From Microbacterium sp. MYb45 (lineage in GTDB: Bacteria; Actinomycetota; Actinomycetes; Actinomycetales; Microbacteriaceae), in assembly GCF_002979655.1 (NCBI RefSeq), contig NZ_PCPG01000010.1, forward strand, positions 1-64,000: a DNA stretch of 64,000 nucleotides. The letters run 5' to 3'. The first letter of the stretch is position 1, and each line of letters starts with the position of its first letter. Of this stretch, positions 14,609 through 61,974 are shown one piece after another. The notes under the pieces are model-generated. The model saw nothing but the letters and a program-made list of their open reading frames with translations. It had not been told where the DNA came from and ran no database searches. Both the position numbers and the translations under genes were made by a program.

Positions 14609-15748
14609 TCAGTCGCCGAGGGCGACAGCCAGCGCGAGAACCGGGGTGAGCGCATCCCGCTCGACGACGATCGACGGACCCGCGGAGTCGACGATCACGC
14701 CCGCCATGTCGGAATGGCTCGACAGGACCTTCGCCAGCTGCTCCGGCTCGAACGGCAGCGGTCGGTCTCCGCGGCCCAGCGCGATCACCTCGAGGGGGTG
14801 GGAGAACAGCTGCAGGAAGCGGCGCCCGTCGGTGGTCTGCGCCTCGGCGATACCGGCCTGGCCGCTGCCGTCACCCTCGTTCACGGCGACCCACATCCGC
14901 TTCACCGCGAGCGCTTCACCGACCTTGAGCGTCGAGTCCTGCTCGCGCGGAGCGGCGAGGATCGTCTTGACGGTCATGTCGACGTCGGCCTGCTCGAGCG
15001 TCTTCTGCAGCAGATCGGTGGGGAACACCACGCGATGCGGGGCGGAGGCGTTGTCGACGATGAGGCCGGCGAAGTCACCGGACACGACCTGCTGGAGCAC
15101 GGACGTCACCGGCTGCGCGACGGCAGAGGTCGCGGCGGGGTCGGCTTCGAGCTGCACCGAGTCGCGCACGGCACGGGCCGAGCTGAACGCCAGCATGAAC
15201 TGCCGGTCGTCGTTGTCGCGCACGACCGCGACCGACAGCGGCTTTCCCTCGCTGATCTGCGCACGCGCGTCGCCGTTCACGCGGATGTAGAGGTGGCCCT
15301 GGAGCGCCTGACGCATCACACCGAGGAGCTGGTCGTTGCTCGCGCCCGCCTCGATCTCGGTGAGAGCCTCGCGGAGCAGCACGTTGTCCTTCATCCCAGC
15401 GACGGTCTCGGTCTGCTCGGGCGGCAGGGGCGAGGCGAGCGGAAGACGCCGTTCCTCGGGAGCTGCGGGCTGCGCAGGCGGAGCGGGCTGCACCGGACGC
15501 GGGTCCGCGGCTGCTGCCTCGGGCTGCGCATCGGAGGTCGGCAGCGCGACCTCGGGTCCGGCCTGGGCGCCGACGCCACGGAACGCCTGCACCGAGATGC
15601 CGATCGACGGCGCCTCGACGGGCTGCTCGACCTCGGTCACGGCATGATCGGCGTTCACGGCATCCGACCCGGTCGCGGTCTCCTCTGCGTCGGGCGCGGG
15701 GGTGACGGCATCGTCTGCGGACTTCTTGCGGCGGGAGAAGAGGGCCAT
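14609..15748 (-). CDS. SseB-domain protein
   Basis: 379 aa. The N-terminus is basic (ALFSRRKKSADD), then a disordered region rich in Ala, Pro, Glu and Asp to about residue 110. The remainder contains two SseB-like modules, one around LREALTEIEAGASNDQLLGVMRQALQGHLYIRV and another around TLKVGEALAVKRMWVAV. SseB domains are widespread in actinobacteria, with unclear cellular function; some relate to secretion or stress. No signal peptide is visible, so it is probably cytosolic. It lies 62 bases downstream of the helicase gene on the same strand and may be co-transcribed. Confidence 0.82.
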   Translation of the reverse strand: MALFSRRKKSADDAVTPAPDAEETATGSDAVNADHAVTEVEQPVEAPSIGISVQAFRGVGAQAGPEVALPTSDAQPEAAAADPRPVQPAPPAQPAAPEERRLPLASPLPPEQTETVAGMKDNVLLREALTEIEAGASNDQLLGVMRQALQGHLYIRVNGDARAQISEGKPLSVAVVRDNDDRQFMLAFSSARAVRDSVQLEADPAATSAVAQPVTSVLQQVVSGDFAGLIVDNASAPHRVVFPTDLLQKTLEQADVDMTVKTILAAPREQDSTLKVGEALAVKRMWVAVNEGDGSGQAGIAEAQTTDGRRFLQLFSHPLEVIALGRGDRPLPFEPEQLAKVLSSHSDMAGVIVDSAGPSIVVERDALTPVLALAVALGD

Positions 15749-47568: not shown

Positions 47569-50028
47569 TCAGAGCAGACCGACACGGCGAGCAGCCTCGA
47601 CCGCCTCGGCACGTCCGTTGACCTGGAGCTTGCTGTAGATGCTTCGCAGCTGTGACTTGACGGTGTTGGCGCTGACGTACCGACGCCCTGCGATCTCGGC
47701 GATGCTCTGGTGGGCGGGAAGCTCCCGCAGCAACTCCTGTTCCCGCGCCGTGAGCTTCGCGATCGTGACGGTCGCGGCCTTCTCCGACATCGCCATGTCC
47801 GGATGCGCGAGGATCTCCTCTGCCACAGGCCGCCACGCCCCCAACCGTTCGATGCGTGCACGCAGCACGACCGACGGCTCGTTCCCCTCCTGGAGGAACG
47901 GCCGCACGGCCCCCAGCGGCGCCGCGCACATCAGCGCGTTCAGGATCGCCGCGGTCGCCGACGAGTCACGTCTGTGGCGGTGCGCGTGAACGGCAAGAGC
48001 CACCCAGGCAGAGGCCAGAGCCAGCGGGGTGAATCGTGGAGCACCGCCCGCCAAGGCCTCACGGAGGACGTGATCGCCCTCACGGTTCGGATGCCGGAGG
48101 AAAGCCGCTGTCGCCGATTCGACGCTGTATTCGCCGAGAACACGACGACAGCGCGCCAGGAGCCGGTCTGCCAGCGGCACGTCACCCTGGCGGATGGCGG
48201 ACCCGATCGCAGGAACCACGGCATAGGCAAGGCTGGAGACCGTGTCGGAGAGGTCGTTCTCGATCAGAGCCACCACCCGCGCGAGCGCGGCGCCGCCCCC
48301 ACGGCGGGTGAGCTCGTCGAGCGCGAGGAGCATCTGCGTCAAGTGGTCGAGGCGTGCGCCGGCACGAGGACTCCAGTGCTCCAGCACGCTCGTCGAGAGA
48401 GGGTCGGCCCGGTGATAGGCACGCGTCGCCTGGAGGCAGACGGCGCGCGCAGCCACGGTATCCCGCTCATCGGCGCCACTGAGCCGGTCACGTTCGATCT
48501 GGAGGAGGACAGGCTCCATGTCGACCCGACTCGGCGCCCGGGAGACGATCGACAGCGCACTCTCCAGGATGAGCATCCGCAACCACCGCAGTTCCGAGGT
48601 GTCGGCGGTCGGCGAGCCGAGGTGCACGAGCGCCGCGCTCCTGTTGTCGTTCATCTCGCCATCCACCCCTCCCGTGGTCCACACCTGCACATACTCGAGA
48701 AGGAGTGCGGTTCCGCGGGAGCAGGACGCGTCGACGGCTAGTGGCGGCCGGTCCCGCATGTCGCCCCGCCGCCGATTCGCGTGCGCCCACAGCGCGTCCA
48801 CGATCTCGTCCACGGCGGTCCGCTCAGCCCTCCGCTGGGCGTGGGTGCGGACACGGAGGAGCTGCGCTGCCCCTGGGCGATCGGGGAAGTGCGGAATCGC
48901 GAGAAGCAGCCCCATATCCGCCTCCAGCCTCTCGCGGTCCCGGGGCGCGACCGCGCGAACGGCACGCATCACCGGGCCGGATTCGCCTTGGAAGATCAAC
49001 TCGTAGCCGTGCTGATCGAGGAAGGCGGCGAGCGCGGCCGCGTCTGCGGCCCGGACTGTCTGAGCGAGGGCGCTGCGCAGATCGCCCCTCGCCGAGAACC
49101 ACCGCGCCGCTGCTGCGTGGGCGCTGTTCGCCCGTGGGAGATCGCGTCGTCGCTGCTCTGCGGCGAGAAACGCCCAGAGGATGGGATGGAACCGATAGGA
49201 ATCCGCGTCCTGTCGCATCACGAGCGAGTTGGCACAGGCGAGCTGCTCGAGAACACGACCGGCGTCGGGACTCCCCGTCACCGTGACGGCGAGTGCTGCC
49301 GATACCGTCGGCGCGACAGCCGACCAGACGAGCACTTCTTCCTGCTCCGGATCGAGAGCGGACAGCACCTCGGTGACGAGATAGTCGGCGACAGGGCGAC
49401 TGTCGCCGTCGAACCGATCCACCACCGAGCCGTCGCCCGTCTCCCGCAGACGGCGCACGAGCACGAGTGCGGTCGCCCACCCACCGGTGCGGGCGAGGAG
49501 ACCGCGGAGCTGCTTCCCGGTGGGGGCTGTCACATCCGCGAGAAGGCTGGTCGCCTCGTCGGCGGTGAAGGCGAGATCGGCACCGGAGATCTCGCTGGTT
49601 CGCACCCACCTGGCGGGCGACACCGGAAGTGCATCGAATCTGCCGGCGAGAACCACCCGAAGGCGGCCATCGCCGCTGTCGACCGCCGCCGCGATGGCCT
49701 CCCGCGCTTGCGCCGACGACCGATCCAGCTGGTCGATCACGAGATACACCCGGGAGGCACCTGCCGCCCTGCTCCGCTGGATCGCGTCGAACACCTGCGC
49801 CTCATCGGCGGCATCTGCGAAACACACCAGGCCGTCGACGGTGGCCATCCACTGCCGGAGAAGCACGGACTTGCCCGAGCCGGCGGGAGCCCAGATACCC
49901 ACGACCCTGATCTCACGCTCGAAGGCGTCGAAGATCCGCCGCAACCGAGGTCGGTCGACCAGGCCGCTCCGTTGCAGGAGCGCAACCACTGATCCGCGTG
50001 CGTGAGTGATGTCCCCGAGATCTATCAT
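47569..50028 (-). CDS. MalT-like (LAL) LuxR-family transcriptional activator
   Basis: 819 aa. An N-terminal STAND ATPase module with Walker A GIWAPAGSGKSVLLRQW (about residues 44-60) and a VYLVIDQLDRS Walker B (around 100). The middle is helical, TPR-like (ARWFSARGDLRSALAQ and similar). The last 65 residues are a LuxR helix-turn-helix (LTAREQELLRELPAHQSIAEIAGRRYVSANTVKSQLRSIYSKLQVNGRAEAVEAARRVGLL). Such proteins activate transcription on binding an inducer and ATP. No target operon is obvious nearby. ATG at 50028 is the first in the frame. Confidence 0.9.
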   Translation of the reverse strand: MIDLGDITHARGSVVALLQRSGLVDRPRLRRIFDAFEREIRVVGIWAPAGSGKSVLLRQWMATVDGLVCFADAADEAQVFDAIQRSRAAGASRVYLVIDQLDRSSAQAREAIAAAVDSGDGRLRVVLAGRFDALPVSPARWVRTSEISGADLAFTADEATSLLADVTAPTGKQLRGLLARTGGWATALVLVRRLRETGDGSVVDRFDGDSRPVADYLVTEVLSALDPEQEEVLVWSAVAPTVSAALAVTVTGSPDAGRVLEQLACANSLVMRQDADSYRFHPILWAFLAAEQRRRDLPRANSAHAAAARWFSARGDLRSALAQTVRAADAAALAAFLDQHGYELIFQGESGPVMRAVRAVAPRDRERLEADMGLLLAIPHFPDRPGAAQLLRVRTHAQRRAERTAVDEIVDALWAHANRRRGDMRDRPPLAVDASCSRGTALLLEYVQVWTTGGVDGEMNDNRSAALVHLGSPTADTSELRWLRMLILESALSIVSRAPSRVDMEPVLLQIERDRLSGADERDTVAARAVCLQATRAYHRADPLSTSVLEHWSPRAGARLDHLTQMLLALDELTRRGGGAALARVVALIENDLSDTVSSLAYAVVPAIGSAIRQGDVPLADRLLARCRRVLGEYSVESATAAFLRHPNREGDHVLREALAGGAPRFTPLALASAWVALAVHAHRHRRDSSATAAILNALMCAAPLGAVRPFLQEGNEPSVVLRARIERLGAWRPVAEEILAHPDMAMSEKAATVTIAKLTAREQELLRELPAHQSIAEIAGRRYVSANTVKSQLRSIYSKLQVNGRAEAVEAARRVGLL

Positions 50029-50085: not shown

Positions 50086-51774
50086 TCAGCGCGTCCGAGC
50101 GACCCGCTTCTCGTCCCACACGGGCTCGTCCGATTCGTAGACGTCGCCGTCCGACCCGAAGACCAGGAAACGGTCGAACGACCGGGCGAACCAGCGGTCG
50201 TGCGTCACCGCCAGCACGGTCCCCTCGAATCGCGCCAGGGCCTGCTCCAGCGCCTCGGCCGATTCCAGATCGAGGTTGTCGGTGGGTTCGTCCAGCAGCA
50301 GCAGCGTCGCCCCGGAGAGCTCGAGCAGCAGCACCTGGAACCGCGCCTGCTGCCCGCCCGACAGCGAGTCGAACGTCTGCTGCGCCTGCCGCACGAGGCC
50401 GTACCGATCGAGCGCCGAACTCGCGGCATCCCGCGGCATCCCCGCCCGACGGTCGTCGCCGCGGTGCAGGATCTCCAGCAGCGTGCGCCCGACGAACTCC
50501 GGATGCGCGTGAGTCTGGGCGAACAGTCCGGGCACGACGCGTGCGCCGAGAGTCGCCGTGCCGGTGTGCGCCACCGTGGTCACCTGCTCTCCTGTCGACG
50601 TGACGTGACCGAGCGTGGCATCAGGGTCGCTGCCGCCACGGGCGAGCAACCGCAGGAAGTGCGACTTGCCCGATCCGTTGGAACCGAGCACCGCGACCCG
50701 GTCGCCGTACCAGACCTCCGCGTCGAAGGGACGCATGAGCCCGGTCAGCTCGAGACGCTGTGCGACCACGGCCCGCTTGCCGGTGCGTGCGCCGCGCAGA
50801 CGCATGTCGAAGTCCTGCGTGGGCGGACGCTCCTCGGGCGGGCCCGCCTCCTCGAACTTGCGCAGGCGCGTCTGTGCCGCCTGATAGCGCGACGCGAACC
50901 CGTCGTTCGCCGACGCCTTGACTTTGAGGTTCGCGACGAGGGTGCGCAGCTTCTCGTGCTGCTCGTCCCAGCGCCGACGCAGCTCGTCCAGTCGGTCCAT
51001 CCGGTCGGTCCGCGCCTGCTGATACGTCGAGAAGCCTCCGCCGTGCACCCATGCCGTGGCACCGGCGCCGCCGGGCTCCAGCGTGATCAGGCGGTCGACG
51101 GCGCGTGCGAGCAACTCGCGGTCGTGCGACACGAGCAGCACGGTCTTCGGCGTCTGACGCAGCTGCTCCTCCAGCCACCGCTTCGTCGGCACGTCGAGGT
51201 AGTTGTCCGGCTCGTCGAGCAGCAGCACCTCATCGGGTCCGCGCAGCAGGGCTTCAAGCGCGAGCCGCTTCTGCTCACCCCCCGAGAGGGTGGTGAGTTC
51301 GCGATACCGCGCCCGCTCGAACGGCACGCCGAGCGCCGCGACCGTGCACTGATCCCAGACGGTCTCGTGTTCGTATCCACCGGCATCCGCGTACTCGGCG
51401 ATCGCCGTGGCGTAGGCCATCTGCGTGTCGTGCTCGTCGCGTTCGATCAGTGCGTTCTCGGCGGCCTCGAGAGCCTCGGCCGCCGCGCGGATGCGAGCCG
51501 GCGCGACGCGCACCAGCAGCTGGTGCACGGTCTCGCCCGCCTCGCCGTGACCGACGAACTGGTCCATGACACCGAGACCGCCATCGATCGTGACCACGCC
51601 GTCATCGGCGGGCCGATCACCGCGGATGATGCGCAGCAGAGTGGTCTTGCCCGCCCCGTTCGGTCCGATCAGGGCGCTGGTGGAGCCTGCACCCACCCGG
51701 AACGTCGCCTCGTCGAGAAGCGGTCTGCCGTCGGGGAGCGTCAGTGAGACGCTGGAGACATCGATGTAGCCCAC
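50086..51774 (-). CDS. ABC-F family ATPase
   Basis: 562 aa with two ATP-binding cassettes and no membrane domain. Walker A motifs are GPNGAGKTT (about residue 38) and GSNGSGKSH (about 360); signatures LSGGEQKRL and LSGGQQARF; Walker B LLLDEPDNYLD and LLLDEPTDNLD. The linker between the domains (YQQARTDRMDRLDELRRRWDEQHEKLRTLVANLK) is a charged helical pair as in ribosome-acting ABC-F proteins. ABC-F proteins modulate translation and some protect from ribosome-targeting antibiotics; which applies here cannot be said. Starts with GTG. Confidence 0.92.
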   Translation of the reverse strand: MGYIDVSSVSLTLPDGRPLLDEATFRVGAGSTSALIGPNGAGKTTLLRIIRGDRPADDGVVTIDGGLGVMDQFVGHGEAGETVHQLLVRVAPARIRAAAEALEAAENALIERDEHDTQMAYATAIAEYADAGGYEHETVWDQCTVAALGVPFERARYRELTTLSGGEQKRLALEALLRGPDEVLLLDEPDNYLDVPTKRWLEEQLRQTPKTVLLVSHDRELLARAVDRLITLEPGGAGATAWVHGGGFSTYQQARTDRMDRLDELRRRWDEQHEKLRTLVANLKVKASANDGFASRYQAAQTRLRKFEEAGPPEERPPTQDFDMRLRGARTGKRAVVAQRLELTGLMRPFDAEVWYGDRVAVLGSNGSGKSHFLRLLARGGSDPDATLGHVTSTGEQVTTVAHTGTATLGARVVPGLFAQTHAHPEFVGRTLLEILHRGDDRRAGMPRDAASSALDRYGLVRQAQQTFDSLSGGQQARFQVLLLELSGATLLLLDEPTDNLDLESAEALEQALARFEGTVLAVTHDRWFARSFDRFLVFGSDGDVYESDEPVWDEKRVARTR

Positions 51775-52506: not shown

Positions 52507-52872
52507 TCACCGCCGGAGCTGCTCGACGCGTTCAGATTCGCCCCAGGCGCGATCCGCCGTGAGCGCGACCGCGTCGAGACGCGCCGCCACCGCGAGGCAC
52601 AGCCGATCGCCGAGCGAGAGGCCGCTCCCACGCTTCCACAGCCGGGCCGCCTCCTCGGCGTCACGGTGCGACACAGGCTCGACGCGCAATCGATAGCTGA
52701 GCAGCAGTCCGGACGCCACGCCCCAGTCGGCACCGGATGCGCGCACCTTCTGCGCGACCTCGGACCAGTTCGCCGCTCCGACCACCGCATCGTCGAGAAT
52801 CTCCTCCACGCGATCGGCTCCGGGTTCGCCCTGCAGGAATGCGAGGAGTGCGGACGCATCCAGGACGATCAC
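52507..52872 (-). CDS. vapC: PIN-domain toxin VapC
   Basis: 121 aa PIN-fold ribonuclease. Catalytic acidic residues: first Asp in IVLDASALLAFLQGE (residue 5), Glu in ANWSEVAQKV, Asp in SLGDRLCLAVAARL and the LTADRAW motif. Starts with GTG, overlapping the antitoxin stop by four bases (GTGA), the usual arrangement. It would cleave RNA (often tRNA or rRNA) when freed from VapB. Confidence 0.92.
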   Translation of the reverse strand: MIVLDASALLAFLQGEPGADRVEEILDDAVVGAANWSEVAQKVRASGADWGVASGLLLSYRLRVEPVSHRDAEEAARLWKRGSGLSLGDRLCLAVAARLDAVALTADRAWGESERVEQLRR

Positions 52873-53117
52873 GCAGCGGCGTCCTCGGAGCTCGCGGCTG
52901 CTCGACGTTCGGCGAGGAGCGATTTCAGAACGTCTTTGCCTTCGAGCTGAGACCTGACGAGGGCCTTGGCCTGCTCGCGGGTGACCAGGATGACCCCACC
53001 CACAGTCTCGATCATCAGCAGCGGCACGCCCTGCTCCCAATGCTGGCGGCTGCGGAGCTCAGCGGGGATGACCAGCCGACCGCGATCACCCATCGGCGCG
53101 ACGAACGTGGTATCCAT
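52869..53117 (-). CDS. vapB: AbrB/SpoVT-fold antitoxin VapB
   Basis: 82 aa. The DNA-binding swapped-hairpin motif is evident (TFVAPMGDRGRLVIPAELRSRQHWEQGVPLLMIETVGGVILVT, residues 4-46). The remainder is a C-terminal toxin-binding helix region, Ala-rich at its end. It represses its own operon with VapC. The gap to the histidine kinase stop on the same strand is only 37 bases, so it may also receive read-through transcription from that operon. Confidence 0.9.
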   Translation of the reverse strand: MDTTFVAPMGDRGRLVIPAELRSRQHWEQGVPLLMIETVGGVILVTREQAKALVRSQLEGKDVLKSLLAERRAAASSEDAAA

Positions 53118-53154: not shown

Positions 53155-54960
53155 TCAGTCGGCGCGGCTCAGGCTCGTCAGCACCTCGGTGCGGGGTGCC
53201 GACGGGAGGACGAAGCGAAACTCGGTGCCCACGCCCTCCTGACTCGTCACGTCCATGCTCCCGCCGTGCGCCAGGACGATCGCCCGGGTGATCGTGAGCC
53301 CGAGACCGACACCCGGCACGGCATTGCGCGTCGCGGTCGACGCGCGGAAGAACCGGGTGAACAGCATCCCCTGTTCGTCTTCCGGGATCCCGACGCCCGT
53401 GTCCTGCACGGCCAGCTCCACTCCCCCGTCGACCGGACGGACGCGGGCGTTGACGCGCCCGCCACGCGGGGTGAACTTGATCGCGTTGGACAGCAGATTG
53501 TCGAGAGCCTGACCGATCCGCCCGGAGTCGATCAGGAGAGGAATGGCGTCAGCACCGACCTCCGCCGCGATCTCTATGCCCTCGCGCTGCGCGTGCGGCC
53601 CCGCCGAGACAACCGCCGATCGGACGAGCTCGGCGATATCGACCTCTTCGCGCTCGAGCGGGAACCTCCCGGACTCGACCTGCGCGGTGAAGAGCAGATC
53701 ACCGACGAGGTTGAGCAGACGCTTCGCATTGCGCTCGATGATGCCGACGAACTCCTGCTGGTCGACGGTGAGCGGCTGACCGGGATCGTTCTGCAGCAGA
53801 TCGAGGAAGCCGATGATCGCGCTCAGCGGCGTGCGGAGCTCGTGGGAGATCATCCCGACGAACTCGTCCTTCATGCGCGCGACCTCGACCGCCCTGGTCT
53901 CGTCGGTGAGCACGAACAGGTATCCCTGCTGCGCGCCGGCGCCGTCCTTGTGCGGGGTGACGGTGACCCGGGCGGGAACCGTCGTACCGCCCGCCGTCGT
54001 CACCTCGACGTCCCCGTCGACCGGGAGCCCGGCATCAGCCTGCGAGAACAGCGCCTGGATTCCGGGCGAGAGCTCCGCATAGCCGGGCAGAAGCTCGTGG
54101 TCCGAGCCGGGACGGTCGACGTTGTCGGCGGCCAGCATCGACAGGACCGCCGTCGAGAAGAAGCGGTCGATGCGCACGTCGTCGCGGGCCTCCTCCGCCG
54201 AGAGTCCCAGCAGGCGTTCCGCTCCGGGATTCCAGGCCGTGATCTTCCCACTGCAGTCCGTCGCGATCACCGCCTGCGCCGTGATCGACGCCCACAGGCT
54301 CTCGAACGAGTCCAGCAGCTCGCGGTACTGACGTTCCTTGTCGCGGAGCTGCACGATCATCGCGACGTTCTCCGACAACGCTCTCGTGCGTTCGACGACG
54401 AGCTCCTCCGCCTGGTCGACGCGCATGCGCTGCTGCCGGGAGAGCTGGTTGATGACCGCGGCCACCGCAGAGAACACCAGCGGACCGACCACCCCGCGCA
54501 GCCACTCGACCGAGGTGTCCGGGGGGTTGGTGAAGTACGGCATCAGGAGCGCGATCGAGGTCAACCCGCCGACGACGAACACCCACCGGATGCCGGGAGC
54601 CGCGGCCAACCAGACCACGGGCAGGAGCACGAGCGAGGAGAAGAGCGAGGTGGCGCCGCCTGTGCCGGTGCGGAAGAGACCGAGACCGACGATATCGACG
54701 ATGGGGATGAGCAGTACGGCCCAGCCGTCATGCATCCCCCGCGTCGTGAGCACGGCGGCGAGCACGGTGGCCGCGAGGACGACGGCGATCCCTGCCACCG
54801 CGGGCATGACATGCGTGATCGGAAGATCGGGGACCCACCAGGTCAGGATCGCCGCGATGATCGTGGCGATGACCGTCGGCGCCTGCTTGAGCAGCGGGCT
54901 CGGGTTGTCGAAGACCTGATACCAGCGGTTCTCCGCGCGGCCGAGCGGCGTCGCCCTCAT
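53155..54960 (-). CDS. PAS-domain sensor histidine kinase
   Basis: 601 aa. Five to six membrane helices cover about residues 28-170, followed by a helical linker (RVDQAEELVVERTRALSENVAMIVQLRDKERQYRELLDSF) and a PAS domain (about 215-355; VIATDCSGKITAWNPGAERLLG). The kinase core has the H-box DEFVGMISHELRTPLS with phospho-accepting His373, N-box QALDNLLSNAIKF (Asn488), DTGVGIP (520-526) and GVGLGLTITRA. Its ATG overlaps the stop of the small receiver by four bases (ATGA). Last gene of the seven-gene glycan operon. The signal sensed is unknown; the membrane part matches no sensor I can name. Confidence 0.92.
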   Translation of the reverse strand: MRATPLGRAENRWYQVFDNPSPLLKQAPTVIATIIAAILTWWVPDLPITHVMPAVAGIAVVLAATVLAAVLTTRGMHDGWAVLLIPIVDIVGLGLFRTGTGGATSLFSSLVLLPVVWLAAAPGIRWVFVVGGLTSIALLMPYFTNPPDTSVEWLRGVVGPLVFSAVAAVINQLSRQQRMRVDQAEELVVERTRALSENVAMIVQLRDKERQYRELLDSFESLWASITAQAVIATDCSGKITAWNPGAERLLGLSAEEARDDVRIDRFFSTAVLSMLAADNVDRPGSDHELLPGYAELSPGIQALFSQADAGLPVDGDVEVTTAGGTTVPARVTVTPHKDGAGAQQGYLFVLTDETRAVEVARMKDEFVGMISHELRTPLSAIIGFLDLLQNDPGQPLTVDQQEFVGIIERNAKRLLNLVGDLLFTAQVESGRFPLEREEVDIAELVRSAVVSAGPHAQREGIEIAAEVGADAIPLLIDSGRIGQALDNLLSNAIKFTPRGGRVNARVRPVDGGVELAVQDTGVGIPEDEQGMLFTRFFRASTATRNAVPGVGLGLTITRAIVLAHGGSMDVTSQEGVGTEFRFVLPSAPRTEVLTSLSRAD

Positions 54961-55304
54961 CGTGGCACCCTTTCGACGATGGCGTGCAGGTCGGCGCCCG
55001 TGATCGGTTTCGGCAGCGCGGCATCCGCCGGCGGGTAGTCGGCGGCATCGAGCACCGAGCTGATCACGAGGAAGCAGTCGGGGAATCGCTCCTGCACCAG
55101 GCGCGCGCAGGCCTGCCCGGAGATTCCCGGGAGCAGCAGATCGAGCACGGCGACCACGGGGTCGATATCCGGGAAGGCCGCGATCGCCGACTCGGCGTCG
55201 TGCGCGATGAAGACGTCGAAGCCCTCACGATCGAGATAGCGCCGCAGGAGCGCAGCTTGGTCGGGAGCGTCCTCGACGACGAGGGCCAACGGCCTCCCGG
55301 TCAT
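54957..55304 (-). CDS. Stand-alone response regulator receiver protein
   Basis: 115 aa, receiver domain only. Acidic pair Glu11/Asp12 (VVEDAPDQ), phospho-acceptor Asp55 (AVLDLLLPG), Ser82 in the switch position and Lys99 (LPKPI). It lacks any output domain, so it must act by binding a partner, probably the histidine kinase or another operon protein, or as a phosphate relay. Its ATG overlaps the stop of the 47-residue peptide gene by 4 bases and its stop overlaps the kinase start. A longer frame exists upstream but is the antisense/shadow of the glycosyltransferase region. Confidence 0.9.
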   Translation of the reverse strand: MTGRPLALVVEDAPDQAALLRRYLDREGFDVFIAHDAESAIAAFPDIDPVVAVLDLLLPGISGQACARLVQERFPDCFLVISSVLDAADYPPADAALPKPITGADLHAIVERVPR

Positions 55305-55444
55305 CGAAGGAACAGCTCTCGCACGACGACGACCACGACGACGACGACGAGCGCGAGAACAGCCTGCGGGATCAGTCGTCGCTCGCGCCGGGCATCCGCG
55401 ACGATCTCCTCCCGCTCGGCTTCGGGTGACGGTGCAGCGTTCAT
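55301..55444 (-). CDS. 47-residue single-pass membrane peptide with nine-valine run
   Basis: 47 aa, too short for routine gene finders but strongly supported: its ATG overlaps the glycosyltransferase stop by four bases and its stop overlaps the receiver start by four bases (ATGA both times). The N-terminal half is charged (PSPEAEREEIVADARRERRL), then PQAVLALV leads into nine valines encoded mainly by GTC repeats (residues 33-41), and the end is RELFLR. It looks like a membrane helix with a charged cytoplasmic tail. It might anchor or regulate the glycosyltransferase or kinase, as small membrane subunits do in polysaccharide synthases. No homologue is known to me. Confidence 0.75.
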   Translation of the reverse strand: MNAAPSPEAEREEIVADARRERRLIPQAVLALVVVVVVVVVRELFLR

Positions 55445-56928
55445 GAGTCGACGCGTCCGATCTTCTCGGTCTTGATCCAGGAGGCGTCAGCACGACGCCA
55501 CTCTTTGATGTAGGAGTCCACGGTGATCGCGCACAGCAGGGAGCCGTAGCCGCAGATGTAGAGCAGGAGCCCGGCGAAGAAACGCCCGCCCGGAAGCTTC
55601 TCGACCGCGCGCGCGAGCCAGATCCCGAGCATCGAGATCGGGCCCCAGAGGTAGAAGATCACGGCCCAGAGGATGCGCGTCTCGTCGGTGAGATCCAGTC
55701 CGACGGCCTCGAGACCGGATTCGAATGCCCACGGGAAGAGGGCGATCACCATCAGGAGGAGCGCACCCAGCCCCGGGAACATGATCGCCTCGCGCCAGGA
55801 GTGCCGGCCCGTACGGGGATCGAGCTGCACCGCGTACAGCATCGAATACAGGTAGATGCAGGCCGCCGAGATCCACATGAAGCGGAAGACGAACTCCGCG
55901 ATGTCGCTGTGCAGCACGAGCAGAGCGAGCATTCCCGCCGCGGCGAGCAGCATGAACGCGGGCAGCAGGAGGATGGTGAACCAGGCCAGTCCGAACGAGA
56001 AGCTGCCCAGGTTGTGCTCGCGGCTCGGACGGAACCACAGCTTGCGGTAGATCGAGGTCAGCTGCACGTTGCCGCGGGCCCAGCGCAGTCGCTGCTTCCA
56101 GAGGCTGTCGATCGTCCGTGGCTCTTCGGCGAGCACGACGGCGTGCGGCTCGAAGACCATCCGGCGCCCCTTGAGCTGGCCCTCGAACGTGGTCATCGTG
56201 TCTTCGGCGAGAGTCCCCGTCGGGATCCGCCCGCCGATCGCCTCGAGGTTGGCCCGCGAATGCAGCTGGGCGCCGCCGGCGAGACAGGCGATCGCGCCGC
56301 CGACGTTCTGCACCCGACGGGCGGAGAGCTGGCCGATCACGTACTCGATCGCGATGAACCGCGTGAGGTAGTTGCGGTCGCGGCTGCCCTCGGCGATGTA
56401 GGCGGTCACCGCCCCGACCTTGTCGTCGGCGAGATGCCGGCTGAGTTTGCGCAGGGAGTCGCGCGCGAAGATCACGTCGGCGTCCATGATGAGCACGGCT
56501 TCGGTCCAGACGTCGGCGAGCACCACATCCAGGCCGTGGTTGAGCGTATGAGCCTTGCCCTCGCCACCCTTCTCGCGCCGCAGGTGCACGACCCGTCCGG
56601 GGTGGGCATCGGCCTTGGCCCCGACGATGGCGGGGGTGTCGTCGGTGGACGCGTCGTCGACGACGAACACGCGCAGGCGATCGGCGGGGTACTCCAGCTG
56701 GAGCAGCCGCTCGATCGCCGGGCCGATGACAGCCCCCTCGTTCCACGCCGGGATGATGACGGCGACGTTCGGATGGTACGGCGCGGCCTTGCCGTAGTGG
56801 TTGCGGAACGCATGCACCGGCAGCATGAGGAACTGCAGCCCCGTGTTGATCACCGGCAGCGTGCCGACCAGGACGCACAGCAGGAGGATGACCACGAACA
56901 CGGTCTGCAGCCAGGTCAGATCGGCCAT
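55441..56928 (-). CDS. Processive family 2 membrane glycosyltransferase (BcsA/hyaluronan synthase-like)
   Basis: 495 aa from ATG at 56928, which overlaps the PHP stop by 1 base. An N-terminal helix (VFVVILLLCVLVGTLPVINT) precedes the GT2 domain. Signature residues are VVDDAST (Asp91), the DAD metal site (149-151), TLAEDT (Glu242-Asp243, catalytic) and QRLRW (279-283, the Q-x-x-R-W motif of processive polymerases). Four to five C-terminal membrane helices follow (about 310-480). It should build and extrude a beta-linked polysaccharide, for example of glucosamine or glucose units. A partner export protein is not in the operon. The longer upstream frame is not used. Confidence 0.93.
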   Translation of the reverse strand: MADLTWLQTVFVVILLLCVLVGTLPVINTGLQFLMLPVHAFRNHYGKAAPYHPNVAVIIPAWNEGAVIGPAIERLLQLEYPADRLRVFVVDDASTDDTPAIVGAKADAHPGRVVHLRREKGGEGKAHTLNHGLDVVLADVWTEAVLIMDADVIFARDSLRKLSRHLADDKVGAVTAYIAEGSRDRNYLTRFIAIEYVIGQLSARRVQNVGGAIACLAGGAQLHSRANLEAIGGRIPTGTLAEDTMTTFEGQLKGRRMVFEPHAVVLAEEPRTIDSLWKQRLRWARGNVQLTSIYRKLWFRPSREHNLGSFSFGLAWFTILLLPAFMLLAAAGMLALLVLHSDIAEFVFRFMWISAACIYLYSMLYAVQLDPRTGRHSWREAIMFPGLGALLLMVIALFPWAFESGLEAVGLDLTDETRILWAVIFYLWGPISMLGIWLARAVEKLPGGRFFAGLLLYICGYGSLLCAITVDSYIKEWRRADASWIKTEKIGRVDS

Positions 56929-57641
56929 CAAGACACCTCCACCGCATCGAGCAGCGGGATGACACGGGAGTAGCGGCCGACCTCGGCGGCGTCGTGGCTG
57001 TCCGTGGAGGCGACGATCACTCCCCCGGCGCGGCGGAGGGCCGACAGCGCTTCGACGCCGGGGCACCCCCACTTCTCATTGACCTCGACCAGGGTGTCGG
57101 TCTGCGCCGCGGCGAGCGCCCACGCCTGCGTGCGCTCCGGGCCGAGATCGAACTCGGACAGACCGATCTTGGGGAGGATCGAGAAGCAGTGCGCGAGCTG
57201 ATTCCCGGGATGCCGACGCATCGTCGCGATGAGCGCGTCGACGAACTGATCCAGCACGTCGTCCGGGGCCCACCCCGCGGCGATCCGATCGCGCACGGTC
57301 GAGGGGCCGAGGGGGCCGTCCGTCCCGGGGAACTGGTGGTCGGCGATCAGGATCCGGTCGATGCCCTCCGGCAGCACCGGGATGTCGAGCGACCCCGCAG
57401 CATCCAGGATCTTGGCCTCGACGCCCGAGAGCACGGTGAGTCCATCGGGCACCCGCAGCGCGCGCACGGCGGCCAGGTACTCGGGCACCCACGTGGTGCT
57501 CTGACGCACGTGGTCGACGAGACGCAGCGAGGTCAACCCGGCCGCGACCGCGGCATCGACGTTCTGGGCGAGCGTCGAGACGGCATCGTCCGAGAAGGTC
57601 GAGTGCACGTGATGGTCGCCGCGCAGTACGGCGTGGGTCAC
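56928..57641 (-). CDS. PHP-domain phosphoesterase-like protein
   Basis: 237 aa. Metal-binding PHP motif GDHHVHSTFSDDA (His10, His11, His13), then RLVDHVRQ, SGVEAKIL, IADHQFPG, NQLAHCFS and ASTDSHDAAE in the order of the PHP (polymerase and histidinol phosphatase) fold, a trinuclear metal hydrolase. Starts with GTG, overlapping the ATP-grasp stop by four bases. Substrate unknown. In capsule systems a PHP-type phosphatase (such as CpsB/Wzb-like enzymes) dephosphorylates a tyrosine kinase, but here no such kinase is seen; a sugar or lipid phosphate is another option. Confidence 0.87.
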   Translation of the reverse strand: MTHAVLRGDHHVHSTFSDDAVSTLAQNVDAAVAAGLTSLRLVDHVRQSTTWVPEYLAAVRALRVPDGLTVLSGVEAKILDAAGSLDIPVLPEGIDRILIADHQFPGTDGPLGPSTVRDRIAAGWAPDDVLDQFVDALIATMRRHPGNQLAHCFSILPKIGLSEFDLGPERTQAWALAAAQTDTLVEVNEKWGCPGVEALSALRRAGGVIVASTDSHDAAEVGRYSRVIPLLDAVEVS

Positions 57642-58627
57642 AGCTCCTCCTGATGACCCGCGTGCTCGGAGACCAGCAGGTCGTCGACCTCGACGATCAC
57701 ATCTTCGAGGAAGCGCACCGACGCGACTTCGCGGAACGGAACGCGCACCGGCAGCTCGCGTCCGAGGAACAGGTCGGCCACGAGTGACGGGATGTCGACA
57801 CCGGCCGCGATCGTCAGCGGCAGCGCGCCGGGGAAGCGCGGATTGACCTCGAGCAGCACGGCCCGGCCGGCGCGGTCCCGGCGCAGTTGCACGTTCGCGA
57901 CGCCGACGAGTCCGATGGCGCGGGCGATCGATGCCGCCGCCTCTTCGAGCTCCGGGTCCTGCACGGTGCGTCCGGCGATGGCGACGCCGGAATCGACCCG
58001 CGCACGGGTGCGGGGCACCGCGGCGACCACGTGACCCGTCGCATCCGCGATGACGTCGACCGAGTATTCCTCCCCCGGAAGGAAGTCCTGCACGATCAGA
58101 CCCTCGTCCGTGGGGAGCGCCTCGAGTGCCGCACGATCGGGCACGAGACGCACGCCGCGACTGCCGGCGCCCTGGCGCGGCTTGGCGAAGACCGGGAACT
58201 CCCAGTCGACGGCCTGCGCGTCAGGGCCGGCGAGGACCGTGCGAGGAGTGAGACCGGTCGGCGCGCACCGTTCGGCGAGCGCGAGCTTGTCCAGCGCCGT
58301 GTTCAGCGTGTCGGCCGACGGCGCGGCGAGCACGGCGGGTGCCAGTTCGTCCCGCCGCTCGGCCAGGGCGATGAGCTCGACGTCGACCGTCGAAATCACG
58401 AGATCGAGTTGATCAGCCTCGACCATGCGCGCGATCGCCGGCACGAAGTCGTCGTCCCTTCCCGGTGGGACCAGGCGACGCTGGGCCGGGGGCACCAGAT
58501 AGATTCCGCTCGCCCAGCCGTCCATGTCGGCGGCGAACACGGTCAGATCGGATCGGCGGAGGAGGGATCGGATCACGGCGACTCCGGCCGGTCCGCCTGC
58601 TCCGGTCACCAGCACACGCTTCGTCAT
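57638..58627 (-). CDS. ATP-grasp ligase
   Basis: 329 aa. The N-terminal Rossmann part starts RVLVTGAGGPAGVAVIRSLLRRSDLTVFAADMDGWASGIYLVP. The ATP-grasp core has FPVFAKPRQGAGSRGVRLV (nucleotide-binding loop, about 165), IVQDFLPGEEYSVDVIADATG and the Mg-binding VLLEVNPRFPG near 265. It ligates a carboxylate to an amine or thiol via an acyl phosphate; carbamoyl-phosphate synthase and D-Ala ligase are relatives. Start ATG overlaps the previous stop by 1 base (TGATG). Substrate unknown; attachment of an acid to an amino sugar exposed by the deacetylase would fit but is speculation. Confidence 0.88.
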   Translation of the reverse strand: MTKRVLVTGAGGPAGVAVIRSLLRRSDLTVFAADMDGWASGIYLVPPAQRRLVPPGRDDDFVPAIARMVEADQLDLVISTVDVELIALAERRDELAPAVLAAPSADTLNTALDKLALAERCAPTGLTPRTVLAGPDAQAVDWEFPVFAKPRQGAGSRGVRLVPDRAALEALPTDEGLIVQDFLPGEEYSVDVIADATGHVVAAVPRTRARVDSGVAIAGRTVQDPELEEAAASIARAIGLVGVANVQLRRDRAGRAVLLEVNPRFPGALPLTIAAGVDIPSLVADLFLGRELPVRVPFREVASVRFLEDVIVEVDDLLVSEHAGHQEEL

Positions 58628-59670
58628 CAGCTCTCCCGTCGGCTGAGTTCATGGGCGCCGATGAACTCAGCCGTCTCGCGCACCACTTCCAGGGGTTCCA
58701 CGGCTGTTCCGCCGCCGAACCGCGACCAGTACCGCGCCGTCGCGGTGACGAACTCGGGTGCCAGGTAGTCGCGATTCGCCGTCTGCGAGCTGAAACGCTC
58801 CAGCAGCCGGAGCTTGTCGTCGAGGTACTGATCGATCCGCACGAACCGGGTGGGACGGAAATCGATCGTCGACGACGGGCTCTGATAGCAGGCGACCGTG
58901 CCCACGCGACGGGTCGCCACGATCGTGGCCTCGCTCACCGCACGGTGATCCTGGTGCCGGTCGTTGCTCGAGTGCGTGTAGACGATCGTCGGCTGGATCT
59001 CCTGCACGACCTCCTCGATGAGGCGCACGGTCGAGCCGCCGCCGGAGATCTCCGTGTCCACGAGATCCTTCAGGAACAGCCGGGCGCCGAGCATCTCCGC
59101 CGCCGCCAGCGACTCGTCCTGTCGGCTCGCGGCATCGCCGCCGCGGGCTCCGCGGGACAGGGTGAGGATCGTGATCTCGTCCTGCGCACGCGAGTGAGCA
59201 GCGAGGAGTCCACCGACCCCGATCTCGACGTCGTCGGGATGGGCGCCGATCGCGAGCACGCGCTCCGTCGGGCGCGCCTCTTCCCGGCGACGGCGTCCTT
59301 CCTCGACCAGTCGCATGACCGACTCGACGAGCTTGGCGTTGTCGAGGGGTTTGGTGAGGAACTCATCGGCCTGTGCGCGCAGAGCCGAGACGGCGTACTC
59401 GACCGACACGTGGGCGGTCATCACCACGACGGGAACGGTGGGGACCGTGCGCCGGAGTTCGGCGAGCAGTTCGAGTCCGTTGAGTCCGGGCATCTCGATG
59501 TCGGTCACGACGACGTCCGGGCGCACCTGCGCCACGCGTTCGACAGCGGCCCGCCCGTCTTCGGCGACGTCGACGATGCAGCCGGCCCGCCTCTCGAGCA
59601 CGGTCTTCACGAGCAGGGCGACGTCGGCGTCGTCGTCGACGACGAGGACTCTGGGAGCATCCTCAGGCAT
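58627..59670 (-). CDS. Receiver domain fused to PIG-L (LmbE) deacetylase
   Basis: 347 aa. Residues 7-120 are a response regulator receiver: Asp12-14 acidic pocket, Asp57 phospho-acceptor (VTDIEMPGLNG), Thr85 and Lys107. Residues about 136-340 are a PIG-L/LmbE N-acetylglucosaminyl deacetylase: the GAHPDDVEIG zinc motif (143-151) and HQDHR (239-243), with SRGARGGDAASRQDES between. A short basic linker (RRRREEARP, about 126-134) joins the two. PIG-L enzymes deacetylate GlcNAc on small molecules or lipids. The fusion suggests direct phosphorylation control of enzymatic activity. First gene of the operon, ATG at 59670 with AAGGAG upstream. Confidence 0.92.
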   Translation of the reverse strand: MPEDAPRVLVVDDDADVALLVKTVLERRAGCIVDVAEDGRAAVERVAQVRPDVVVTDIEMPGLNGLELLAELRRTVPTVPVVVMTAHVSVEYAVSALRAQADEFLTKPLDNAKLVESVMRLVEEGRRRREEARPTERVLAIGAHPDDVEIGVGGLLAAHSRAQDEITILTLSRGARGGDAASRQDESLAAAEMLGARLFLKDLVDTEISGGGSTVRLIEEVVQEIQPTIVYTHSSNDRHQDHRAVSEATIVATRRVGTVACYQSPSSTIDFRPTRFVRIDQYLDDKLRLLERFSSQTANRDYLAPEFVTATARYWSRFGGGTAVEPLEVVRETAEFIGAHELSRRES

Positions 59671-59814: not shown

Positions 59815-60129
59815 TCAGGATCCGGCGGCAGCGGCCTTCTTCTCCTGTTGGTAGACCCGGATCGCCTCGTAGCGGTCGGCCGAGCGGGCGCGACGCTTGG
59901 CCGCCTCGTCATCGCGATTCTTCGGCGGGGCGGTCGTGACGAGTTCGTCCAACAGGGCACGGGTCGCCTGCGCGATCTCGGCGACCGCGCGGTCGAACGC
60001 GGCGCGATTGGCACGCGACGGCGCGTTCGCCCCGGAGATCTTCCGGACGAACTGGAGGGCCGCCTCGTGGCACTCCTCGTCGGTCGCGGCGGGCTCGAGG
60101 TTGTTCAGCGGAACGATGTTTCGGCACAT
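59815..60129 (-). CDS. DUF2277 protein
   Basis: 104 aa. The start MCRNIVPLNNLEPAATDEECHEAALQFVRKISGA is the typical DUF2277 opening. The C-terminal part is helical and charged with Lys/Ala-rich tail. Function is unknown. ATG at 60129 is preferred because longer frames lack the family start. Separated from guaB by a terminator, so an independent unit. Confidence 0.9.
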   Translation of the reverse strand: MCRNIVPLNNLEPAATDEECHEAALQFVRKISGANAPSRANRAAFDRAVAEIAQATRALLDELVTTAPPKNRDDEAAKRRARSADRYEAIRVYQQEKKAAAAGS

Positions 60130-60163
60130 ACCGGCACGGTACGCCGGGCCGTCGACAGACGGA

Positions 60164-60194
60164 AGGGGCCGGATGCGCGCGGCATCCGGCCCCT
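60164..60194 (-). terminator. guaB terminator
   Basis: Perfect inverted repeat with 13-base arms (AGGGGCCGGATGC and complement) and a 5-base GC loop, 28 bases after the guaB stop. Similar in core sequence to the terminator at 3658. Confidence 0.9.
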
Positions 60195-60221
60195 CTGCGA
60201 AGATCCCGTCGGGATCCGACG

Positions 60222-61974
<1,753 letters not shown>

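Follow-up and report, generated by a model that had tools for sequence, protein, structure and literature searches.

We describe a putative two-component system whose output may be an enzyme, encoded by an operon in Microbacterium sp. MYb45 DNA (contig NZ_PCPG01000010.1, positions 1 to 64,000; this whole 64-kb stretch is referred to below as the window). The operon comprises seven open reading frames (ORFs) on the minus strand, running from position 59670 down to 53155, the first of which encodes a receiver domain (REC) fused to a PIG-L de-N-acetylase. We propose that it is a cassette for an exported amino-sugar glycan, in which de-N-acetylation by PIG-L would be gated by phosphorylation. We give this reading, of which the gating, the substrate and the polymer are what we infer, about an even chance. 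The seven ORFs, with the grounds for each assignment, are as follows:

58627..59670, minus strand: REC/PIG-L de-N-acetylase fusion, 347 amino acids (aa) (Pfam, invariant residues, AlphaFold2 (AF2) model, Foldseek)
57638..58627, minus strand: ATP-grasp ligase of the PRK12767/ATPgrasp_Ter type, 329 aa (Pfam, AF2, Foldseek)
56928..57641, minus strand: PHP-domain phosphoesterase, 237 aa, GTG start (Pfam, conserved residues)
55441..56928, minus strand: processive-type GT2 membrane glycosyltransferase (GT), 495 aa (motifs, five hydrophobic segments)
55301..55444, minus strand: single-pass membrane peptide, 47 aa (one hydrophobic segment, residues 28-46)
54957..55304, minus strand: lone receiver domain, 115 aa (Response_reg, 43.3 bits, above the Pfam cut-off)
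53155..54960, minus strand: membrane PAS sensor histidine kinase (HK), 601 aa (HisKA, HATPase_c, PAS)

According to the ORF coordinates and the raw sequence, the genes overlap at six junctions, by 1 (58627), 4 (57638-57641), 1 (56928), 4 (55441-55444), 4 (55301-55304) and 4 bases (54957-54960), and the fusion gene starts with an ATG at 59670, with AAGGAG ahead of it. Pfam searches placed Response_reg (109.6 bits) and PIG-L (PF02585; 86.6 bits, cut-off 28.2) in the single fusion protein. Matches above the cut-off were also obtained for (i) the ligase (ATPgrasp_Ter, 110.4 bits), (ii) the phosphoesterase (PHP, 33.1 bits, cut-off 26.4), (iii) the glycosyltransferase (Glyco_tranf_2_3, 110.8 bits) and (iv) the kinase (HisKA, 70.7; HATPase_c, 96.1; PAS, 27.2 bits), which has five hydrophobic segments within residues 30-144. 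The 47-aa peptide has no Pfam match. An earlier note on this DNA had described a seven-gene operon with overlapping junctions and these same domains, and the coordinates, the raw sequence and the Pfam matches all agree with that description.

Judged from its sequence, the fusion protein is a receiver with a predicted phospho-acceptor site, joined to a catalytic domain. Residues D57 and K107 and the motifs AHPDDVEIG (143-151) and HQDHR (239-243) are invariant in 36 aligned fusions from several phyla, and so are the residues of the PIG-L metal motif (H144, D147 and H242). Among 81 fused receivers, the phospho-acceptor Asp is found in every one (81/81), the acidic pair in 98 and 95%, the switch Thr in 96% and the Lys in 100%. 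The non-fused receivers located within 6 kb of a fusion (n=85), a mixed set in which receivers of hybrid kinases and LuxR-type regulators are included, keep the Asp in 98% and the Lys in 96% of cases. The catalytic part belongs to the PIG-L/LmbE de-N-acetylases by score, motifs and fold, and the protein has no hydrophobic segment. In the AF2 model (pLDDT 92.6, pTM 0.78), alpha-5 of the receiver forms a single helix (residues 111-132) leading towards PIG-L; the continuation of this helix into an output domain is a common signalling arrangement. The top Foldseek matches are PIG-L-fold deacetylases (TT1542, E 1.4e-14; BC1534, E 1.8e-14), and the catalytic part also matched BshB, diacetylchitobiose deacetylase and glycopeptide deacetylases. 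A specific assignment as the bacillithiol deacetylase BshB1 (TIGR04001) was rejected (79.9 bits vs. an equivalog cut-off of 182.5).

The genetic neighbourhood of the fusion was compared in 79 loci, which are the best of 539 relatives in a scan with the fusion and hence biased towards the query; the gene maps rely on profiles derived from these loci. In 77 of the 79, REC and PIG-L are encoded by a single reading frame, a count that is not independent, because the fusion was the query and unfused cases are under-sampled. The two remaining loci are L081, apparently frameshifted, and L093, truncated by the end of its contig. Of the 72 loci followed by 4.5 kb or more of downstream sequence, 65 have the ATP-grasp gene, 60 the GT gene and 56 the PHP gene within 6 kb of the fusion; counted by 37 name groups based on record titles, the numbers are 31, 30 and 24, respectively. 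Of the 58 loci with 6 kb of sequence on both sides, 53 have a kinase gene and 40 a second receiver gene inside that range. Elsewhere in the window there are no further matches to the profiles of the operon families (E <= 1e-5, frames of at least 60 aa). A chance neighbourhood is rejected on the strength of this absence, of the cross-locus linkage and of the co-occurrence of the genes in the genus Microbacterium (25 of 149 genomes; see below). The prediction that these genes form a conserved neighbourhood is thus strongly borne out across phyla, and the opposing possibility, that they occur separately in related genomes, fails on the same counts.

Some individual loci differ in structure. In Leucobacter sp. 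Ag1 (L081, 8001-9040), REC and PIG-L lie in different frames, owing to a frameshift or a sequencing error. The Agrococcus locus L064 contains a second, diverged REC-PIG-L copy (14786-15724) downstream of the kinase gene. In L086 (7917-17353), several receivers in a row and four histidine-kinase matches come after the fusion, and no glycan enzyme is encoded. An M. oxydans isolate contig (L041) encodes a fusion protein 100% identical to that of the window, whose source is a Microbacterium close to this species. The ATP-grasp gene is missing near the fusion in L104, and in L106 it has the opposite orientation; the GT gene is on the other strand in L095 and L108, and 4.7 kb upstream in L109. PIG-L proteins without REC are encoded near ATP-grasp and GT genes in three loci (L128, L129 and L130), which suggests that the enzyme trio constitutes a pathway of its own, to which the receiver adds control. 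A UDP-GlcNAc 2-epimerase gene is present in L128 as well, and next to the GT gene of L129 lies an exosortase-like ORF.

The type and the location of the kinase vary among the loci, i.e. a downstream membrane PAS kinase, an upstream kinase (Blastococcus) or a divergently transcribed hybrid kinase (Gammaproteobacteria), while the fusion is constant. In 17 of the 79 loci, a kinase gene lies within 6 kb and the fused receiver is the only receiver nearby; a permissive re-search of these found no other receiver with an independent E-value better than 0.35. Such loci are consistent with direct signalling from the kinase to the enzyme. In Leucobacter tardus (L045), the kinase region directly follows the peptide gene. 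Direct control of the enzyme is favoured because the receiver is in frame and has intact phosphorylation residues, because the kinase varies while the fusion stays, and because of the 17 single-receiver loci. It is plausible that the kinase controls deacetylation by phosphorylation.

The remaining enzymes of the operon were also assigned to families. The AF2 model of the ATP-grasp protein (pLDDT 91.0, pTM 0.86) has the ATP-grasp fold and matched 2pn1, biotin carboxylases, the L-amino acid ligase 3vot and PylC (4ffr) in Foldseek, i.e. carboxylases alongside amide ligases. The His/Asp/Glu positions of the PHP protein are kept in at least 93% of 61 homologues, and YcdX is its only match of solved structure. 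An assignment as a CpsB-type PHP tyrosine phosphatase was not upheld, the only Pfam match being PF02811 and the eight NCBIfam PHP-type models matched (YcdX, HisJ, CehA/McbA and others) including no CpsB and none over its cut-off. In the glycosyltransferase, all 22 sequences compared keep D91-D92, D149xD151, E242-D243 and Q279xxRW283 unchanged. The signature set of processive GT2 synthases consists of the D, DxD, ED and QxxRW motifs, and together with the membrane segments these identify the predicted protein as one of the processive polysaccharide-synthase type.

The 47-aa peptide is the product of a real gene under purifying selection. Among 18 loci of the Microbacterium/Leucobacter type, 17 have such an ORF, sharing 4 nt with the GT gene at its stop codon; the sole exception is L044, whose GT frame is broken. 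The dN/dS values of the peptide, relative to that of the window, are 0.24-0.49 in 11 of 12 equal-length homologues, where computable, and the twelfth is identical. Matches to the peptide come only from Microbacterium, Leucobacter and close Micrococcales loci.

Versions of the locus from outside the Actinomycetota differ in their accessory genes. In four gammaproteobacterial loci (L090, L100, L109 and L111), an H-NOX gene lies between the fusion gene and a gene for a hybrid kinase-receiver, the H-NOX and kinase genes being transcribed away from the fusion. The H-NOX protein of L090 gave a Pfam HNOB match of 106.2 bits, and IHxxV and YxSxR, which we take to be H-NOX motifs, are present in all four proteins. 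L107 and L110 encode a hybrid kinase and have no H-NOX match. A low-molecular-weight phosphotyrosine phosphatase (LMW-PTP) is encoded in six loci; judging by position, PHP (Actinomycetota) and LMW-PTP (Gammaproteobacteria) may stand in for each other. Of the 11 loci from outside the Actinomycetota, 8 (L090, L092, L095, L100, L106, L109, L110 and L111) encode a TPR protein close to the enzymes; as for the remaining three, the enzymes are absent from L084, and the sequences of L088 and L107 stop inside the enzyme genes. On visual inspection, seven of the eight TPR proteins (not that of L092) have a signal-like start and five end in Phe. The TPR part is weakly similar to PgaA in four of five scanned proteins, and PrsT (TIGR02917) scored higher in all five. 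These proteins probably have a C-terminal barrel and are of the outer-membrane type.

Based on these assignments, the following pathway may be proposed: (i) the membrane PAS kinase would sense an envelope or redox cue and autophosphorylate; (ii) the phosphate would pass to the PIG-L-fused receiver, as suggested by the kinases without another receiver nearby, with the lone receiver serving as an accessory carrier or sink; (iii) phosphorylation would turn on (or off) the metal-dependent de-N-acetylation of a cytosolic precursor or acceptor of the N-acetylglucosamine (GlcNAc) type; (iv) the ATP-grasp ligase would join a carboxylate, e.g. an amino acid, to the freed amine; and (v) the GT2 enzyme would polymerise and extrude the glycan. 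A phosphatase could be supplied by PHP in Actinomycetota or, by position, by LMW-PTP in Gammaproteobacteria. Acylation by an ATP-grasp ligase of an amine freed by PIG-L is known for these families, e.g. from the GlcN-based thiol pathways. The reasons for proposing export of a polymer are the GT2 signature of a processive enzyme and the TPR protein found in Gram-negative relatives.

Beyond the window, there may exist a widespread class of two-component systems with a carbohydrate de-N-acetylase as direct output. In such systems, H-NOX-linked NO-sensor kinases (Gammaproteobacteria) or membrane PAS kinases (Actinomycetota) would phosphorylate the enzyme and so adjust, in a matter of seconds and with no transcription step, how charged or acylated an exported amino-sugar glycan is. 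We put this forward tentatively, at somewhat less than an even chance. If true, two-component signalling would gain a new type of output, and envelope or nitric oxide signals would have a post-translational path to the chemistry of surface glycans, with a defined enzyme set (PIG-L, ATP-grasp and GT2) for an amino-sugar glycan in several phyla.

Several observations weigh against the proposed reading. As regards gene content, no GT gene was found near the fusion in 12 of the 72 loci; among those lacking it are Leifsonia L050, L053 and L054, Cellulomonas L068, Blastococcus L070 (which has only a 37-bit fragment) and Gemmatimonadota L092, all of which retain the ATP-grasp gene. L065, L079, L082 and L086 consist of the fusion and a kinase only, L084 and L089 lack any partner, and the ATP-grasp and GT matches counted in L096, L097 and L101 are weak and lie on the other strand. 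Of the 58 loci flanked by 6 kb on both sides, 18 have no second receiver and five (L084, L089, L091, L102 and L108) no kinase within that distance. As regards chemistry, no model among the NCBIfam matches listed reaches its cut-off for any operon protein, the listing comprising the best 25 of 109 models for the fusion, of 52 for the lone receiver and of 82 for the kinase. The scores of the GT, PIG-L and ATP-grasp proteins are far under the cut-offs, which makes chemistry by analogy weak. As regards signalling, the evolutionary distances of the kinase correlate equally with those of REC and PIG-L (0.91 and 0.91; n = 42 common loci; bootstrap difference -0.057 to 0.059), and within the Actinomycetota (n = 34) they correlate best with ATP-grasp (0.86, vs. 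0.82 for PIG-L and 0.80 for REC).

The gene content bears on one alternative in particular, namely that the product is a small glycoconjugate (a modified oligosaccharide or a lipid-linked sugar) made by NodC-NodB-NodA or GlcN-thiol logic, in which PIG-L frees an amine and ATP-grasp acylates it. ATP-grasp is the most constant partner of the fusion (65 of 72 loci, vs. 60 for GT), some loci keep PIG-L, ATP-grasp and PHP without a GT, and the structures closest to PIG-L are those of enzymes with small GlcNAc compounds as substrates (BshB, diacetylchitobiose and glycopeptide deacetylases). The GT scores 76.2 bits on the NodC model, but it has the full processive signature and scores higher, 118.5 bits, on PgaC/IcaA, and the outer-membrane-type TPR partner of 8 of the 11 loci outside the Actinomycetota also points to a polymer. 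We consider a small glycoconjugate unlikely. Neither model yields an assignment of the GT itself: PgaC/IcaA, the synthase of poly-N-acetylglucosamine (PNAG; TIGR03937), is its best NCBIfam match but has a cut-off of 422.3 bits, and the equivalog cut-off of NodC is 550.

The second alternative concerns the output of the kinase. The fused receiver might serve for dimerisation, localisation or phosphate buffering, with the kinase acting on transcription through a DNA-binding regulator encoded elsewhere (Microbacterium) or next door (Gammaproteobacteria). A LuxR-type DNA-binding regulator is indeed encoded beside the hybrid kinase in five of the six gammaproteobacterial hybrid-kinase loci (L090, L107, L109, L110 and L111; the sixth, L100, is cut by a contig end), which also counts against an enzyme as the output of the system, and the genome of the window contains many other receiver-like candidates (56 at first look). 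A mere dimerisation domain would not, however, need the Asp (81/81), Thr (96%) and Lys (100%) kept in the fused receivers, and in 17 of the 79 loci the 6 kb around the fusion contain a kinase but no further receiver. We regard this second alternative as quite unlikely.

The comparison of distances neither bears out nor refutes the co-evolution of receiver and kinase expected in the earlier note. The kinase seemed to track the fused REC (0.90) better than PIG-L (0.80), a difference that was overturned on the common locus set, where both values are 0.91; the equal correlations, with ATP-grasp highest in Actinomycetota, reflect shared inheritance. Where a second receiver is present, the fused one correlates with the kinase more closely than does the other (0.89 vs. 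0.77, n = 30; Actinomycetota, 0.77 vs. 0.49, n = 22), the "other" being the first receiver found within 6 kb, so that paralogues may be mixed. The regulatory interpretation given in the earlier note is partly supported, by the conserved unit, the invariant Asp and the kinases without another receiver. The co-evolution of receiver and kinase is seen as a correlation of distances, without a signal specific to the receiver. An output free of DNA binding holds for the window, since the seven operon proteins gave Pfam matches (E <= 0.01) to no family that binds DNA, but not in general, given the LuxR-type regulators of the Gammaproteobacteria. It is highly improbable that the relay and the glycan pathway are two independent functions kept together only by co-transcription: a REC-REC-HK set without enzymes nearby (L132, in genome G109) and the REC-less PIG-L, ATP-grasp and GT genes of L128-L130 would fit this, but 77 of the 79 loci encode REC and PIG-L in a single frame (unfused cases being under-sampled), beside kinases of differing types and positions.

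Direct control of the enzyme, the reading we prefer, would place the fusion among the response regulators with an enzymatic output, such as CheB, PleD and RpfG, in which an alpha-5 linker likewise connects a canonical receiver to a catalytic domain. The Foldseek matches of the fusion included CheB and PleD, via its receiver part. They and RpfG differ from it in having a methylesterase or cyclic-di-GMP (c-di-GMP) enzyme as output, whereas that of the window fusion is a PIG-L/LmbE sugar de-N-acetylase. The fold and the metal motifs of PIG-L are shared with BshB, MshB and diacetylchitobiose deacetylase, but the window enzyme is fused to a receiver and has GT2 and ATP-grasp as partner genes.

The operon also resembles the PNAG operons pgaABCD and icaADBC, in that its GT2 is nearest to PgaC/IcaA, a deacetylase is encoded and Gram-negative relatives have a (weakly) PgaA-like TPR protein. 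It differs in that the GT2 scores far under the PgaC/IcaA cut-off, ATP-grasp and PHP genes are added, and the seven genes encode no c-di-GMP protein. PgaB and IcaB are exported CE4 deacetylases; the seven genes encode no enzyme of this type and PIG-L instead. NodABC follows a logic of synthase, deacetylase and N-acylation, and the order of the chemistry could be alike, but none of the seven proteins matches NodB or NodA. The known outputs of H-NOX/HnoK systems are c-di-GMP enzymes or regulators. The four gammaproteobacterial relatives share with them an H-NOX beside a hybrid kinase; the seven window proteins, in contrast, include no H-NOX, and the output here would be a deacetylase. In the available main text of a 2022 H-NOX review, there is no mention of "PIG-L" or "deacetylase".

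A link with xagABCD of Xanthomonas, a GT-containing biofilm locus, was considered and dropped: in the text available, PMC8250860 lacks the terms "deacetylase" and "ATP-grasp", and PMC3609779 lacks "PIG-L", "deacetylase", "LmbE" and "ATP-grasp" and uses "receiver" only for HD-GYP proteins. The open-access literature held in PubMed Central, as far as its text was accessible (including term searches of PMC8250860, PMC3609779, PMC8738867 and PMC3018481), yielded no description of the REC/PIG-L fusion or of the gene set, although domain databases may list the architecture. This agrees with the earlier note, whose author knew of no described system with this set. The operon would extend the known response regulators with enzymatic output by a de-N-acetylase output and a gene set of which this literature yielded no description.

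We also analysed the distribution of the operon, using five proteins (fusion, GT, PHP, ATP-grasp and kinase) in searches of 149 genomes of the genus Microbacterium. The fusion is present at full length in 25 genomes (E below 1e-100), and GT (E <= 1e-60) and PHP (E <= 1e-12) are found in exactly these. ATP-grasp (E <= 1e-20) occurs in the same 25 and in G071, G075 and G096 (32-39% identity), and the kinase (E <= 1e-60) in the 25 and in G109 (40%). The five genes are neighbours, by their coordinates, in all 25 genomes; within the genus, the operon is a discrete, all-or-none cassette. G109 encodes a receiver-receiver-kinase set (L132, 10357-12828) whose receiver and kinase share 53% identity with the fused REC and 40% with the window kinase, respectively, with no enzymes in 20 kb. 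In an even sample of 396 actinobacterial genomes (Actinomycetota), the fusion was found in three, including that of the window, and a REC-less relative in two (E <= 1e-50); the system is therefore rare and patchy. No match to the fusion was found in 72,556 plasmid records (E <= 1e-40), in which the GT gave two partial matches only (36-37%).

The operon is located between guaB/DUF2277 genes and an AbrB-like gene, its flanks in the window lying at 52869-53117 and 59815-60225; the label "AbrB-like" reflects a Pfam MazE_antitoxin match of 16.8 bits, under the cut-off of 24.7. In genome G001 (L171), all seven genes lie between the DUF2277 gene and a homologue of the window region 50086-51774. The corresponding site was inspected in six operon-less relatives (stretches of 11.4-11.6 kb beside guaB), in which the seven proteins gave no match at E <= 1e-3 other than a 75-residue PHP match of 33% in L167. 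In G004 (L169), the DUF2277 and AbrB-like genes that flank the operon in the window are 39 bp apart, and in G021 (L165) the homologue of 50086-51774 starts about 690 bp past guaB; in L166, L167, L168 and L170, the gap holds 2 to 4 kb of other sequence. With the flanks close to each other in two of these relatives and separated by other DNA in four, the genes are evidently gained and lost as a group at a variable chromosomal site. Further along the window, positions 47569-50028 encode an 819-aa protein whose C-terminal end resembles, by eye, a LuxR-type helix-turn-helix.

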